A stretch of DNA of 35,290 nt from Phycisphaerae bacterium (GTDB lineage: Bacteria > Planctomycetota > Phycisphaerae > Phycisphaerales > SM1A02): NCBI GenBank assembly GCA_002700845.1, contig PAFA01000019.1, positions 1 to 35,290 on the forward strand. Reading direction: 5' to 3'. Positions 8,279-23,744 of the stretch are shown piece by piece; the stretch's first letter is position 1; each line of letters begins with the position of its first letter. The position numbers and the translations under genes were made by a program. Under the pieces are notes generated by a model that did not search any database, was not told the DNA's origin, and worked only from the letters and a program-made list of their open reading frames with translations.

Positions 8279-8890
8279 ATGAGCAATAGATTCCATGCCA
8301 TCCTCCTGTTTGGATACCCCGGTGCTGGCAAAGGCACCCAAGGGGATCGTCTTGGCTCGCGCAAAGGCTTTTTCCATCTTGCCACCGGCGACGTGTTCCG
8401 ATCGCTGGACCCCGATTCAGAGCACGGACGGGAATTTCAGTACTACGCCGCCAAAGGCTTGCTGGTGCCTGACAGCCTGACCATGGCCATTTTCCGAAGC
8501 TACCTGTACAACCAAATCGCCGCTGAACGCTTCCAGCCTGAGTCGGAAATGCTTTTGCTCGATGGCATCCCAAGATCTGTCGAACAAGCTCGGATCCTTC
8601 AGGACCTGGTCGAAGTGTGTTCTGTCTTGCACCTCAAAGCCAGCGACCTCGATGTGCTGGCGGACCGAATCGTCAAACGGGCGGTGGAATCAAAGCGAGA
8701 AGATGACGCCGACACCGAAGTGATTCATCGTCGATTCCGGGTGTACGAAGAACAATCCATGCCGGTTTTGGCGTGCTATGACGCCGCCAAGATCCACGAA
8801 TTGGATGCATTACAACCTATGAGTGAAGTCACCGAACACATCAACGGCATTGTTGATCCGATTCGCTACCACATCTTTCCTATGCGCTAA
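8279..8890 (+). CDS. adk: Adenylate kinase family nucleoside monophosphate kinase
   Basis: P-loop GYPGAGKGTQ, HLATGDVFRS, LLDGIPRSVEQA, REDDADTEVIHRRFRVYEEQSMPVL. Confidence 0.88.
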   Translation: MSNRFHAILLFGYPGAGKGTQGDRLGSRKGFFHLATGDVFRSLDPDSEHGREFQYYAAKGLLVPDSLTMAIFRSYLYNQIAAERFQPESEMLLLDGIPRSVEQARILQDLVEVCSVLHLKASDLDVLADRIVKRAVESKREDDADTEVIHRRFRVYEEQSMPVLACYDAAKIHELDALQPMSEVTEHINGIVDPIRYHIFPMR

Positions 8891-11030: not shown

Positions 11031-11486
11031 ATGAACCAGCCGGTTGAACTTCGATGGACCCGATTGCGCCCTGACGCCTCCCTCCCCCAGCCAGCCACCG
11101 CTCAAGCAGCGGGCCTTGATCTGACTGCCGCCATGGATCACCCCATCACTCTTGACCCTGGGAGTATCGCCGCCATTCCGTGTGGATTTGCCATGGCGTT
11201 GCCTGCGGGCTTTGAGGCTCAAATTCGACCGCGATCTGGATTGGCCCTCCGGAATGGGATCTCGATGCCCAATGCTCCGGGCACCATCGATGCGGATTAC
11301 CGCGGTGAAGTGAAAGTGCCGCTCATCAATCTTGGTCGGGACACTTTTGTCGTGGAACCCGGCATGCGAATTGCGCAAATGGTGATTGCAGCCGTGCCAA
11401 GCGTACAAATCGTGGAGACCGACACCCTCGACGAGACCGAACGCGGTACCGGTGGATTCGGTTCAACGGGTCTTCAAACACCGTAA
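11031..11486 (+). CDS. dut: dUTP diphosphatase
   Basis: [63 protein letters not shown] (all five dUTPase motifs). Confidence 0.96.
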
Positions 11487-13237
11487 CGATGCTGGAGTGA
11501 GCGAATCGTGGCCGCACAACCACGACGAAGCATCAGTGCCGACAAATCCAAACCTCGCTCATCCAAGAATCGAGCTTCAATGGCGTAACGGATCACGTAA
11601 TCAAGTTCTGAGCGGCGATCGGCAAAAGGATCGGCCGCAAGACCGAGGACGTCACGAAAAAAAGCCTGAAGTGGATCGGGTTGCAACTCCGGATGATCTC
11701 GAGCCAGCCGTATGGCAAGATCGACCAAAGGGGCACGCAAAAGAATTTCCTCGAGTCGATCGTTCCCCTTCAGAATTGCTTTGGGGAGCTCTTCCTGCAA
11801 CAACTTCACCTCTTTGGCGAGCAGGGATCGTGGAATCATAAAACCATGCGCACCCGTCTCCTGGGAAGCAACGAGCCCTTCAATGAGGCGAAGGACGTCA
11901 AATGGACGACGGTCCACGGCGGCACCCTGAATTTCAAACTTGGATTTCCACCACACATTTCGTGCCGCGATCAGTTGTTGTTGCAGATTTCCACCAGCAT
12001 CCGACAACCAAGCTATGGAAGGCAATGTGAACTCCAATGAACGAGGGTAGAACCGTTCAGAATCTTCCAGAAAAAGTTCGATCACTTGCAGGGCATTGTC
12101 TCCAAGCACTGGGTCCGTCGCAGACAACAACATGTCCTGAAGTCGAACTCCAAATTCCTCGCGGTCTTGAGGATAGATTTTGCTCCACTTTTCGTGCCAT
12201 GCTTCCAGTGACTGCGCGTACCCAAGCAAATTCGAACGGGTTCGAAAACGCTCGTACATCGCGAGTCGACCCGGATCCAACAACATTTCACGACCTCCGA
12301 GTATCTCTGGCAATCTTGAAAGGATCTCTCTTTCTGCCGCCCGCATTTCAATACGAAGTTTGGGGAAGAGTCCACGAAACAAGCGGCCCCCTTGTTCGGG
12401 ATCAATTTCGGACCGTTTGGCAAATTGAGCAACCACGGCACCAAGTCGATTCACCCCGCTCTGGTCCAAAGGTTCTGTCCGTGCCGAGACCAAGAGTTCT
12501 TCAAGCAAACCCCTTAGGCTCTCGAGAATAACCTTCGCTTCGTTGGATTGAACTCGTGACAAATCTTCAAGGATGGGGTGCAGTGCTCCGTACACTTCCG
12601 CTTCACGCCACGCTTGAGCACGGGTAGATGGATCCAGCAGACGAATGCGTACGTCGCGAATATCTTCACGCCAACGATCACCGAGGCCACCAGTAGGAAA
12701 CGCCGAAGCCTCAAGAAACAATTGCGTCTGCATAGCGCAGTGGCAACAACTTCTGACGCTGAGAAGATCTGGTCGTTGGCGAAGATCTCGTTCAAACGCA
12801 TCCCATCGAGGATCAACATCCAAGTCCAATTTGAGTACCCCAATGGCCTGTTCGGAGACTTCAGGGGTTTGTTCAATCAGGGCACGACAAAAATTCACCA
12901 GATGGCCAGGCGTGGGCTGACCAACATCAAGTTGCATCCAAAGTGCGAGGTCCCCACTTTCGATCTTTGCATCAACCCAAGAAGTCAGTCCGTGCATTCG
13001 GACACCGCGAACATACAGACGATCACCCTGTGAATTCTGACTGGACCCGACCAGGTGGGCCAAGATCAACTGCCGCCAACCCGAACGTGCACGACTTGAC
13101 CAATCGTTTTTTTCGCTGAGCTCGGTTATCTCGGCCCCAACCGAGGCCATCAACGTGGTCTGGAAATTGGGTTCGTCTAAAACTGGACGGGGGTCATCCG
13201 AAGCCAAACCGAACGTCTGACCGAAAACCAACACCAT
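11474..13237 (-). CDS. Hypothetical protein, 587 aa, no recognised domain
   Basis: Long ORF. Start set at the ATG at 13237, just after the glycosyltransferase stop; the listed extension to 13552 would overlap the glycosyltransferase and is low-quality sequence. Confidence 0.75.
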
Positions 13238-13241
13238 TGAT

Positions 13242-14393
13242 TCAAGCCAACAACTTGGCATGGATCTCCTCCAAGGCCTCCACCATGGCATCCACAGTAA
13301 ACGCGGGCGCCACCAAAGACCTCGCCCGATCAGCCATTCTCGCAGATGACTGAGGCTGATCAAGGTGTTCCGCACAGGCTGTACGCAGGGCCGATACGTC
13401 ACCCACCGGAACCAGACGGCCCGTTTCCCCAGGCACACACACCTCACGAGTGCCGTCAGCATCGGTAGCAACAACGGGGATCCCGGCCAGCATGGCTTGA
13501 ACCACCACCCGCGGCAATCCCTCACGATAGGAAGGGTGAACCAGCAGGTCACATGCTTGAATCAATGAAGGAATCTCTTCAGAACCCACCATCCCCGTCA
13601 CGGTGATTCGACTGGACAGACCGAGCTCTTCTGCCAAAGCAAGCCTTGCGTCTCGCCGCCAGCCATCACCGACCCACAACAATCGAATGCGCTCGTCCTT
13701 CTTCATCAATGGAGCGAGTGCGTGCAGCAGATCATCATGTCCCTTGAGATCGGCAATTCGAGACACGGTGGCAATCACGACGTGTTCAGGATTGAATCCA
13801 AATTTGGTTCTCGTTGCGTCGGTGTCTTTGGCTTGAGCAAATGTCGAAACATCCATACCGCTCCGAACCAAGTGATACTGCTCTGGGGTCCCAACTCCAG
13901 CCGCGAGAAGTTGATCCCGCATGCTCCATGACACGACAGGAAGGGCGTGGCAGCGTTTGGCGGCATGACGTTCAAGCGCGATGTAAAATTTTCGCAGTAC
14001 CCACGGTTGGTACCGGTGAAATGGCATTCCGTGCACCGTGTGCAAAATGGCGGGGACCCGCTCCGCCCAGGCAGCCCGGCGTCCCAAGATCCCAGCTTTT
14101 GACGAATGCGTGTGCACGACATCGGGCCGCCAATCTCGAATCAAACCGCGGATGTCTTTCTCGCAGCGCCACTCCCGAAGTGGGGCAGGATCACGAACCA
14201 GGTGTGGGGTTTCAATTCGCTCGACTTTTTCGGGGACATCATTCTTCATGGACCCTTCTGGACCGTGAATAGGACCATGCACCAGCGCCACCGAATGGCC
14301 ACGATCCCGCTGACCTTGACACGTCAACAGTGTGTTTTCTTGCGAACCACCGCGAATCAAACGCGTTGAGATGTGCATGATTCGCAAACTCAT
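13242..14393 (-). CDS. Glycosyltransferase family 4
   Basis: MSLRIMHISTRLIRGGSQENTLL, VHTHSSKAGILGRRAA, ATVSRIADLKGHDDLL, LLWVGDG, HPSYREGLPRVVVQAMLAGIPVVATDADGTREV. Confidence 0.93.
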   Translation of the reverse strand: MSLRIMHISTRLIRGGSQENTLLTCQGQRDRGHSVALVHGPIHGPEGSMKNDVPEKVERIETPHLVRDPAPLREWRCEKDIRGLIRDWRPDVVHTHSSKAGILGRRAAWAERVPAILHTVHGMPFHRYQPWVLRKFYIALERHAAKRCHALPVVSWSMRDQLLAAGVGTPEQYHLVRSGMDVSTFAQAKDTDATRTKFGFNPEHVVIATVSRIADLKGHDDLLHALAPLMKKDERIRLLWVGDGWRRDARLALAEELGLSSRITVTGMVGSEEIPSLIQACDLLVHPSYREGLPRVVVQAMLAGIPVVATDADGTREVCVPGETGRLVPVGDVSALRTACAEHLDQPQSSARMADRARSLVAPAFTVDAMVEALEEIHAKLLA

Positions 14394-15192: not shown

Positions 15193-16329
15193 TCAGTTTC
15201 CGAACAAATTCTTCGTCCCGAACATTCCTTTTGCCTCAAACCACGCGAGTGCTTCGTCCACTGAAGCAAAGATTCGGGTCGCGGTCTCAGTAATGAATGG
15301 GCTTGGACTCTTGGCCGGCTTCCACACCACATAAACCTCTTTGGTGTGTTCCCATGCGTGTTGAAGTTCTCGCTCCACACCACTGGACAATCCGGGGACG
15401 CCGCCGGGCAGTTCGGGGACCAGTGACACGATCATGTCCGACTGGTCGATGAGTTTGAAATCCCGCATGTAAATCTGACCATCGATGTCACCGGCAATAT
15501 CCAAGATCTCACGAACTGGAATGCGAAGGTCCTCGGTCTGATCAAAACCACCACCGAACTCATGAGGCTCCACATCGACAAAATCTTTGCCTTCTTTCGC
15601 GGCGAGAATCGCACGGTCCAAAAGCAATTTTTCATCGACATCCGCTGGGTCAAATGTAATGAAATGCTCCGCGAGTGCGGCCCGGAACTTGGCGATCTCA
15701 GCCAAGACATCTGGCATATCTACCACGTGGCTCATGGGGAAGGACGGGTAGACCTTCCGCATCTCTGGACGACTGACCAAACGACGACAGGTTTCGTGGG
15801 TGGCGTTGTGCCGACCACGGCTAAGAATGTAGAAATCATTGGGACAGCCCATCGCCTGCGCTAGTAGCTCGGTGGCCAAGATCTCTTCTTCTCGCCAAAC
15901 CATGCAATCTTTCAACGTGGCGTCAATCTCGTGCTCTTTGTGCAGACGGGCGTGCACCATCTCGATGTTGTCAACCAAACAAATGAACATGTTGGGCTGG
16001 AGAGCTTGCATCTGATCGAAATCAAATGCGCTGAACAAGCCATGACGCCAGCGAAAGGTGGCATGGGTATTCACAATGAGATCCGGATGATCCTCAAGTG
16101 GCTGGCTTCGGTTGATGATGTCCTTGAAAGCGGCGCGACGAAGAGATGCGAGCCGCGAGATCGGAAGATCAAGAATTCTTCCCCCCCGAACATCTGTCGC
16201 CTCGTCGTACATCATCTTGCCCACGTGGAAGGAATCAATACGATCCCCCCCCTGCCCAGCCAGGTCCACGACCTGCCGAAGGTAGTCGGCTTTATCCATT
16301 CCAATTTGACCGGTCACAACTGCTCGCAT
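15193..16329 (-). CDS. Fusion protein: archaeal AdkA-like NMP-kinase fold + nucleoside 2-deoxyribosyltransferase-like domain
   Basis: N-term RAVVTGQIGMDKADYLRQV ... FHVGKMMYDEA ... LDLPISRLASLRRAAFKDI ... LIVNTHATFRWRHG ... LQPNMFICLVDN resembles archaeal adenylate kinase; C-term RKVYPSFPMSHVVD ... FDPADVDE ... YMRDFKLIDQSDMIVSLVPELPGGVPGLSSGVERELQHAWEHTKEVYVVW resembles the NDT fold with its SGxxxEL.xA Glu motif. Confidence 0.65.
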   Translation of the reverse strand: MRAVVTGQIGMDKADYLRQVVDLAGQGGDRIDSFHVGKMMYDEATDVRGGRILDLPISRLASLRRAAFKDIINRSQPLEDHPDLIVNTHATFRWRHGLFSAFDFDQMQALQPNMFICLVDNIEMVHARLHKEHEIDATLKDCMVWREEEILATELLAQAMGCPNDFYILSRGRHNATHETCRRLVSRPEMRKVYPSFPMSHVVDMPDVLAEIAKFRAALAEHFITFDPADVDEKLLLDRAILAAKEGKDFVDVEPHEFGGGFDQTEDLRIPVREILDIAGDIDGQIYMRDFKLIDQSDMIVSLVPELPGGVPGLSSGVERELQHAWEHTKEVYVVWKPAKSPSPFITETATRIFASVDEALAWFEAKGMFGTKNLFGN

Positions 16330-22388: not shown

Positions 22389-23744
22389 TCAATCGACGCT
22401 GTCCTCCTCGATGAGCATAAAGCGAATTCTCGCCTCCGCCGCCAACCTTCCAGCAACCGTGGCTCGACATCGAACTGAGATGATCCTGGCTCGCACCTGA
22501 ATTGTTTCCGCTTCCAGAACCAACTGATCGCCCGGCGTCACTGGCTTTCGAATTTTGACGCCATCCAAACTCAACAGCACCGGGGTCTTTCCAGTGTTGT
22601 CGATGGTGTTGGAGACCAAAAGGCCACCCAGCTGGGCCATGGCTTCGACGATAAGGACCCCAGGCATGATGGGAACATTTGGGTAGTGCCCTTGGAAGAA
22701 TGGCTCGTTGATGCTGACGTTTTTGATGCCGATCGCTTTGCGATCGCCATCGAGTTCAAGGACACGGTCCACCAACAACATGGGGTACCGGTGGGGAAGG
22801 GCACGCTGAATGGATCGAATATCCATGGCACGGCCTTCACGCAGTAATTTGGGATCAACCGGAAGGTCGTGAACCAAGGAGAGTGCCAACCGGCGATTCA
22901 GCTCGTGTCCTGATCGTGCGGCAAACAAACGCCCTTGAATCCGCCGGCCGGTGAGTGCGAGGTCACCAATCAAATCCAAGATCTTGTGTCGGGCGGGCTC
23001 TTCGGGGAATCGAACTTCGGTTCCGATGGGCCCATCCGGACCAAAAACGAGCATGTCGCCTTCGCGGTGGTGCCGACCCAAACCCGCTTGCCGCAAAGCC
23101 TCGGCCTCTTCTTCCAAACAGAAGGTCCGCGCGGGGGCAATCTCGGTCGCAAAAGTGGCGGGAGTGAGGGCCAATCCCACAGACTGGCGGAGAATGCGGC
23201 CGTCATCGAGGCCGTCATCTCGGCTGTAATCCAAGTCGTACATCACTTCCAAGCCACCCGCCTTGGCTGGCGCAAGGCCAACCAACGCTTGCTCCTCAGA
23301 CTCTGCTGTCAAACTTTCGGGGTGCAGTACCTCGGCTGGTTCGTCCTGTTCGACGATGCCAGCGTCAAGAATTGCATCGACAAATGTCTTGGCTGATCCA
23401 TCAAAGCCTGGAGGTTCGGTGGCGTCCATCTCAATCCGAACATTGTCAATTTCCAGTCCCGCCAGTGCCGCAAGCAAGTGCTCAACTGTTTGGACGCGGA
23501 CTTCACCAAGTTCCAAAATAGTGCGGCGCTCTGCACGTCGAGCAAATTTCACCAGGGCGGGGATCTTGACCACTGGTTCTAGATCCGTGCGGAGAAAGAC
23601 CCGTCCGGTTCCCGGTTCAGCCGGTATCAGTCGCAAGCGGCAATGGTCACCGGTCAGCAGACCGGGACCCTCAAGTTCGATCGATGCCGCCAGCGTCCGC
23701 TGCAACGGGCTTGATTCAGAAATGGAAGCAGGGGAAGCGCTCAT
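22389..23744 (-). CDS. lpxC-fabZ: Bifunctional LpxC deacetylase / FabZ dehydratase fusion
   Basis: LpxC: QTVEHLLAALAGLEIDNVRIEMD, PARHKILDLIGDLAL, SGHELNRRL. FabZ: IQRALPHRYPMLLVDRV, GHYPNVPIMPGVLIVEAMAQ. Confidence 0.95.
   Translation of the reverse strand: MSASPASISESSPLQRTLAASIELEGPGLLTGDHCRLRLIPAEPGTGRVFLRTDLEPVVKIPALVKFARRAERRTILELGEVRVQTVEHLLAALAGLEIDNVRIEMDATEPPGFDGSAKTFVDAILDAGIVEQDEPAEVLHPESLTAESEEQALVGLAPAKAGGLEVMYDLDYSRDDGLDDGRILRQSVGLALTPATFATEIAPARTFCLEEEAEALRQAGLGRHHREGDMLVFGPDGPIGTEVRFPEEPARHKILDLIGDLALTGRRIQGRLFAARSGHELNRRLALSLVHDLPVDPKLLREGRAMDIRSIQRALPHRYPMLLVDRVLELDGDRKAIGIKNVSINEPFFQGHYPNVPIMPGVLIVEAMAQLGGLLVSNTIDNTGKTPVLLSLDGVKIRKPVTPGDQLVLEAETIQVRARIISVRCRATVAGRLAAEARIRFMLIEEDSVD

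Follow-up and report, generated by a model that had tools for sequence, protein, structure and literature searches.

A class-wide fusion of AdkA-like and NDT/DNPH1-like domains in Phycisphaerae, a candidate 2'-deoxynucleoside 5'-monophosphate N-hydrolase

Introduction

Which reaction should be expected of a protein that joins the fold of an archaeal-type adenylate kinase, bearing an unusual P-loop, to the fold of an N-glycosidase? The question is raised by a gene on the minus strand of a 35,290-nt stretch of Phycisphaerae DNA (the window). A preliminary description, made from the sequence, had read the protein as an AdkA-like half with a degenerate P-loop followed by a half resembling nucleoside 2'-deoxyribosyltransferases (NDT), and had proposed a role in nucleotide salvage, damage clearance or signalling. 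The N-hydrolases of 2'-deoxynucleoside 5'-monophosphates (dNMPs) described in the literature consulted are the mammalian nucleotide-pool sanitiser DNPH1 (PMC10603095) and the phage enzyme DmtZ (PMC12884076); MilB is a relative from an antibiotic pathway (PMC4081090). A literature search found no publication on the present family or on the fusion.

Results

Two folds in a single reading frame

The gene and its two parts are as follows.

15193..16329, minus strand: whole gene, 378 aa, an open frame with start ATG at 16329 and stop at 15193-15195
15769..16329, minus strand: N-terminal domain, residues 1-187, AdkA-type P-loop kinase fold (PF13207, 6ln3 profile, Foldseek)
15196..15768, minus strand: C-terminal domain, residues 188-378, NDT/DNPH1 N-glycosidase fold (model and Foldseek)

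The host genome is a 1.77-Mb, 78%-complete assembly in which the gene lies on contig C34; full-length copies with 97% identity occur in three genomes of the same genus. All of the motifs singled out in the preliminary description are present in the frame: GQIGMDKAD (residues 7-15), FHVGKMM, LPISR, VNTHA, RKVYPSFPMSH (starting at residue 191, nt 15759) and SSGVERELQHA. The domain boundary, which it had put near residue 190, falls between residues 187 and 188.

The N-terminal half matches the Pfam AAA_17 model (PF13207) with 32.4 bits against a cut-off of 27, and the PDB entry for AdkA (6ln3) with an E value of 2.3e-5 as one sequence and of 5.9e-11 as a 54-member family profile. An AlphaFold2 model of the whole protein, built on the family alignment (mean pLDDT 92.3, pTM 0.90), retrieves AdkA 6ln3 in a Foldseek search (E 2.7e-10, TMt 0.78), with NDT 7o62 lower in the list. 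The C-terminal half behaves differently in sequence searches. As a single sequence it matches no profile above any cut-off; PF05014 (NDT) weakly matches 20 of the 54 family members (best E 0.027), all below its cut-off and the window protein not among them, and a profile search of the domain against the PDB returned nothing meaningful (GTPase Grn1, E 0.68). A structure search was therefore needed. Modelled alone (pLDDT 91.0, pTM 0.81), the C-half matches 7o62_B (E 8.5e-6, TMt 0.78) and 8osc_B, DNPH1 with dUMP (TMt 0.74); the first two places are taken by chains of the NDT from D. psychrophila, and the leading coherent group comprises NDT (7o62, 8pqr), human DNPH1, YtoQ and BcmB. Modelling thus recovers both folds first suggested by eye, the C-half by itself and the N-half within the whole protein, and their assignment as AdkA-type and NDT/DNPH1-type is as good as certain. 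Fold and active site place the C-domain in the NDT superfamily, as a divergent member below the Pfam threshold.

A predicted active site with the signature of dNMP hydrolases

Conservation was counted among 72 homologues sharing less than 80% mutual identity, or 71 for C-domain positions D290, S315, G317, E319 and E321. The residue equivalences are putative, being drawn from the spacing of motifs, from a single MilB fragment of 53 residues and from the literature. The positions concerned are listed here.

15748..15750, minus strand: Tyr194, predicted equivalent of DNPH1 Tyr24 (MilB Phe17), conserved in 72/72; equivalence by spacing only
15460..15462, minus strand: Asp290, predicted general acid/base (DNPH1 Asp80, MilB Asp78), conserved in 71/71; register from the MilB fragment
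15364..15387, minus strand: residues 315-322, SSGVEREL, with Ser315 (predicted 5'-phosphate binder) and Glu321 (predicted nucleophile) in an S-x-G-x3-E spacing shared with rat DNPH1 and MilB

Ser315, Gly317, Glu319 and Glu321 are each present in all 71 nonredundant homologues, so that the acidic residue of SGVEREL, whose variability would have spoken against an enzyme of this kind, proves to be invariant. In the model, Tyr194 sits in the first strand of the C-domain. The family profile aligns to the MilB fragment in the same register, with the low probability that goes with a target of one 53-residue sequence; an NDT-like protein from a relative (L178), used as a bridge to the NDTs of the PDB, gave weak MilB matches that were usable for register.

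In human DNPH1 the catalytic triad is Y24, D80 and E104, while S98 and the dimer partner's S128' hold the 5'-phosphate (PMC10603095). The corresponding phosphate-loop and nucleophile residues are S87, G89 and E93 in rat DNPH1 (PMC3834327); MilB has D78, S97, G99 and E103 (PMC4081090). S-x-G-x3-E is thus common to rat DNPH1 and MilB; in human DNPH1 the distance from Ser to Glu is identical. Nucleoside transferases instead use an Asp or Asn to hold the 5'-OH (PMC12884076), AvNRT with its D79/E85 pair being an example (PMC7308715). Whether the Y24 position carries Tyr or Phe sets the preference for deoxyribo or ribo substrates (PMC10603095, PMC7308715). An invariant Ser six residues before the Glu, together with Tyr194, therefore makes up the signature of a dNMP N-hydrolase, and by analogy the Tyr rather than Phe points to a preference for deoxyribose. 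It is very probable that the C-domain holds an active glycosidase or transferase site. Of the nucleoside exchange or hydrolysis domain originally envisaged, the glycosidase fold stands; the signature is that of NMP hydrolases and not of nucleoside transferases.

Fold, triad and phosphate-site signature would equally suit a 2'-deoxyribose-5-phosphate transferase that swaps bases between dNMPs for salvage, with no hydrolysis. DmtZ demonstrates that an NMP-type NDT can perform both reactions (PMC12884076), and the class-wide conservation described below would befit salvage. The reading is nonetheless rather unlikely: DmtZ is its sole natural precedent, and the adjacency of deoC (see below) implies that free 2-deoxyribose 5-phosphate (dR5P) is the product. 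Taking the NDT label literally, with deoxynucleosides lacking a phosphate as the substrates of a nucleoside 2'-deoxyribosyltransferase or nucleoside hydrolase, would agree with the two top structure matches and with PF05014 being the weak profile match, yet it is improbable with an invariant Ser at the position where transferases have their 5'-OH-holding Asp or Asn.

An altered P-loop lacking both magnesium ligands

Three segments of the N-domain are listed here.

16288..16314, minus strand: altered P-loop, residues 6-14, TGQIGMDKA; family consensus TGQ[VI]G[LMVI]DKK
16048..16071, minus strand: residues 87-94, NTHATFRW, with Asn87 at the position of the Walker B Asp of AdkA (IIDTHA) in the alignment to 6ln3
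15883..15897, minus strand: residues 145-149, WREEE, invariant in the alignments; AdkA lid region, assigned by eye

In the P-loop, Gly7 and Gly10 are found in 72/72 sequences and Lys13 in 70/72. The third Gly (position 12) is absent from all 72, with Asp in its place in 64, and position 14, the site of the Walker A Ser/Thr, is Lys or Arg in 61/72 and Thr in 2. Asn occupies the Walker B Asp position in 71/72. In NMP kinases the Walker A Ser/Thr and Walker B Asp side chains organise a Mg2+ ion. The loop does depart from GxxGxGK[ST], as the preliminary description had remarked, but "degenerate" is not the proper term: TGQ[VI]GxDKK is a conserved variant and not the product of decay. Since both Mg2+ ligands are lost throughout the family, the domain is predicted to bind nucleotide rather than phosphorylate it. 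From this consistent loss, set against the strong conservation around it, we infer a metal-free nucleotide-binding domain, neither decayed nor an active kinase.

A bifunctional salvage enzyme, whose N-domain would still phosphorylate (deoxy)nucleosides or NMPs and whose C-domain would act on the product, could draw on the AdkA-like fold, on Lys13 and on the NMP-site residues, which are strongly conserved in the 72-sequence alignment. The two ligand replacements and the missing third Gly speak against it, as does a separate adenylate kinase-like gene at 8279-8890 of the window, and such an enzyme seems unlikely. With the P-loop and Walker B Asp both differing, and a score of 22.1 bits to the AdkA model NF003122 against a curated cut-off of 155 that no relative exceeds, the fusion protein is not a member of AdkA.

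The gene at 8279-8890 (plus strand) itself scores 123 bits against adk cut-offs of 168 or 187, below every curated adk cut-off listed, and is possibly a divergent NMP kinase. The idea that the fusion stands in for a missing adenylate kinase was rejected given this gene, below the curated cut-offs though it is.

Recurrent linkage to deoC

The preliminary description had noted a minus-strand run with truA, UDPGP and phoU. These neighbours are local: within Phycisphaerales the partner is often truA, but linkage to the three genes is confined to part of the order and the neighbours elsewhere are unrelated, so that functional coupling to them was rejected. The informative neighbour in the rest of the class is deoC. 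It is the most widespread same-strand neighbour in other orders, being the next gene in 13 loci from six families (f6, f7, f8, f111, f115, f119), often 0-31 nt downstream of the fusion, and it scores above the curated deoC cut-off wherever checked. The loci with deoC downstream on the same strand are the following.

L158 (G439); L165-L169; L171; L172; L135; L137; L139-L141

In the gene tree the linkage turns up in two places, f111 lying apart from the rest. In the clade of f7, f8, f115 and f119, deoC lies inside a longer conserved gene block, which in f8 includes a chorismate-binding enzyme, an aminotransferase of class IV, NIF3 and ScpB (scpB); in f6 and f111 the deoC link alone remains. Within Phycisphaerales, the window included, deoC is not adjacent to the fusion, and none was detected in the 78%-complete genome that the window comes from. 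Since f5 has the fusion gene without deoC and f110 has deoC without the fusion gene, an argument from strict co-occurrence was rejected.

Hydrolysis of the DNPH1 type yields 2-deoxyribose 5-phosphate, a compound for which DeoB is the usual source and which the aldolase DeoC consumes. Canonical DeoB scores above cut-off in 0/130 genomes of the class, whereas DeoC is found in 330/397; it is thus unlikely that dR5P arises by the standard DeoB route. As strong evidence the absence of DeoB was weakened by a sample of other planctomycetes, most of which likewise lack the canonical enzyme (present in 16/128). Altogether, the deoC/DeoB context, with canonical DeoB as the phosphopentomutase searched for, is no more than supportive of dNMP hydrolysis. 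DeoC also served as the coupling enzyme in the published dNMP hydrolase assay (PMC12884076).

Elsewhere in the window, a single frame at 22389-23744 (minus strand) encodes an LpxC-FabZ fusion, with TIGR00325 and TIGR01750 above cut-off and the bifunctional model NF009667 at 394 against a cut-off of 465; lpxA/lpxD-like, OmpH-like and BamA-like frames lie beside it by eye, indicating a group of lipid A and outer-membrane genes. A 692-aa frame at 11474-13552 (minus strand) has no NCBIfam match at E 1e-5 and was recovered beside dut in same-genus loci only.

Distribution and conservation

The homologue search places the fusion throughout the class: it is found in 346 of 397 Phycisphaerae genomes (258/283 of those of good quality), usually as a single copy. 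Across a phylum-wide sample of 392 genomes, 39 have a match and 38 of these belong to the class; a family-profile search gave the same count of 39 genomes as the single-sequence search. The lone match outside the class (L142 in G223) lies on a contig of 6.6 kb; the tree places it with Phycisphaerales, and either a stray (misbinned) contig or a transfer may account for it. Second copies in a few f112 genomes, G550 (L145) and G693 (L144), are nested among Phycisphaerales, from which transfer appears to occur; as judged from the tree, the extra and out-of-class copies (L144, L145, L142) suggest horizontal transfer or misbinned contigs.

Over 77 loci of other genera, the ratio of bit score to self score is 0.76 for the fusion against 0.57 for the next best neighbour, and the fusion outscores each of six compared neighbours in every paired locus. 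Between genera of the order its identity is 69-78%, against 70-74% for RecA of these genomes; over the whole depth of the class the values are 47-51% and 61-68%. The fusion is therefore as conserved as RecA within the order and less so across the class.

A nucleotide-signalling or defence enzyme related to TIR, SLOG or ADP-ribosyl cyclases, to which the common superfold and the Sir2 (TMt ~0.3 or less) and ThsB structures in the C-half Foldseek list might point, is very improbable, since NDT and DNPH1 come first with much higher TM, the pattern is the near-universal, slow-evolving one of housekeeping genes, and a defence or signalling origin was rejected for want of a consistent PADLOC match and of any occurrence in the phages, plasmids and viral contigs searched. 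Of the roles first proposed, salvage or damage clearance fits these findings as a predicted function, while signalling is disfavoured by structural rank, spread and housekeeping pattern.

Discussion

Taking sequence, models and analogy together, we favour, with a probability of about 0.5, the reading that the C-domain is an N-hydrolase of 2'-deoxynucleoside 5'-monophosphates and that the pseudo-AdkA domain either regulates it or captures its substrate. In the proposed mechanism, Glu321 would attack C1' of the dNMP while Asp290 protonates the base; Tyr194 would position Glu321 and select 2'-deoxyribose, and Ser315 with the GxxxE loop would hold the 5'-phosphate. Water would then free 2-deoxyribose 5-phosphate, the overall reaction being a retaining N-glycoside hydrolysis, and DeoC, where present, would split this product into glyceraldehyde-3-phosphate and acetaldehyde. 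The N-domain would use the P-loop Gly and Lys residues that it has kept, together with its NMP-site residues, to bind a nucleotide; no Mg2+-dependent phosphoryl transfer would take place, and the domain would in this way gate the hydrolase.

In the cell the enzyme would serve to dispose of surplus or damaged dNMPs, and the fusion is probably a core enzyme of nucleotide clean-up or recycling. A bolder proposal, which we put forward tentatively and hold to be possible rather than probable, is that in a class-defining enzyme, conserved to the degree of RecA, a kinase without metal ligands has turned into a nucleotide sensor over a dNMP N-hydrolase. Phycisphaerae would then feed surplus or damaged dNMPs into central metabolism independently of DeoB, and the removal of bases from dNMPs would be a core function in bacteria instead of a rare extra. 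A dNMP-cleaving enzyme kept by nearly all members of a bacterial class, in one slowly evolving copy, would make an entire lineage dependent on this reaction, and the pseudo-kinase fusion would exemplify the reuse of a kinase fold for metal-free regulation.

Comparison with known systems

The N-domain shares the fold of AdkA (PRK04040 / NF003122) at about 20% identity (6ln3); unlike AdkA, it does not conserve GxxGxGK[ST] or the Walker B Asp and is fused to another enzyme. Structurally the C-domain comes closest to the NDTs (PF05014; 7o62, TMt 0.78), from which it differs in having Ser for their Asp/Asn at Glu-6 and in scoring below the PF05014 cut-off. With MilB and BcmB, the N-glycosidases of CMP and hydroxymethyl-CMP, it has in common the register D-x3-I-x2-[AS]-D ... 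S-x-G-x3-E, but MilB has the ribo-specific Phe17 where the fusion family has its invariant Tyr194. DmtZ, and the DmtZ-DutZ fusions of PurZ0 phages, offer the parallel of a dNMP hydrolase from the NDT superfamily that in some cases is joined to a partner domain binding nucleotides (PMC12884076); there the partner is dUTPase-like and not AdkA, the protein is phage-encoded and Asn replaces the catalytic Asp. DNPH1 (Rcl, 2'-deoxynucleoside 5'-phosphate N-hydrolase 1) resembles the C-domain in its fold, its Tyr/Asp/Glu triad and its phosphate-binding S-x-G-x3-E loop. It differs in being a stand-alone single domain with no kinase-like part, and its partner's Ser128' has no mappable counterpart in the fusion; its base-recognition Arg30 is replaced here by Ser/Thr (position 200), so that the base preference of the fusion may differ from that of DNPH1.
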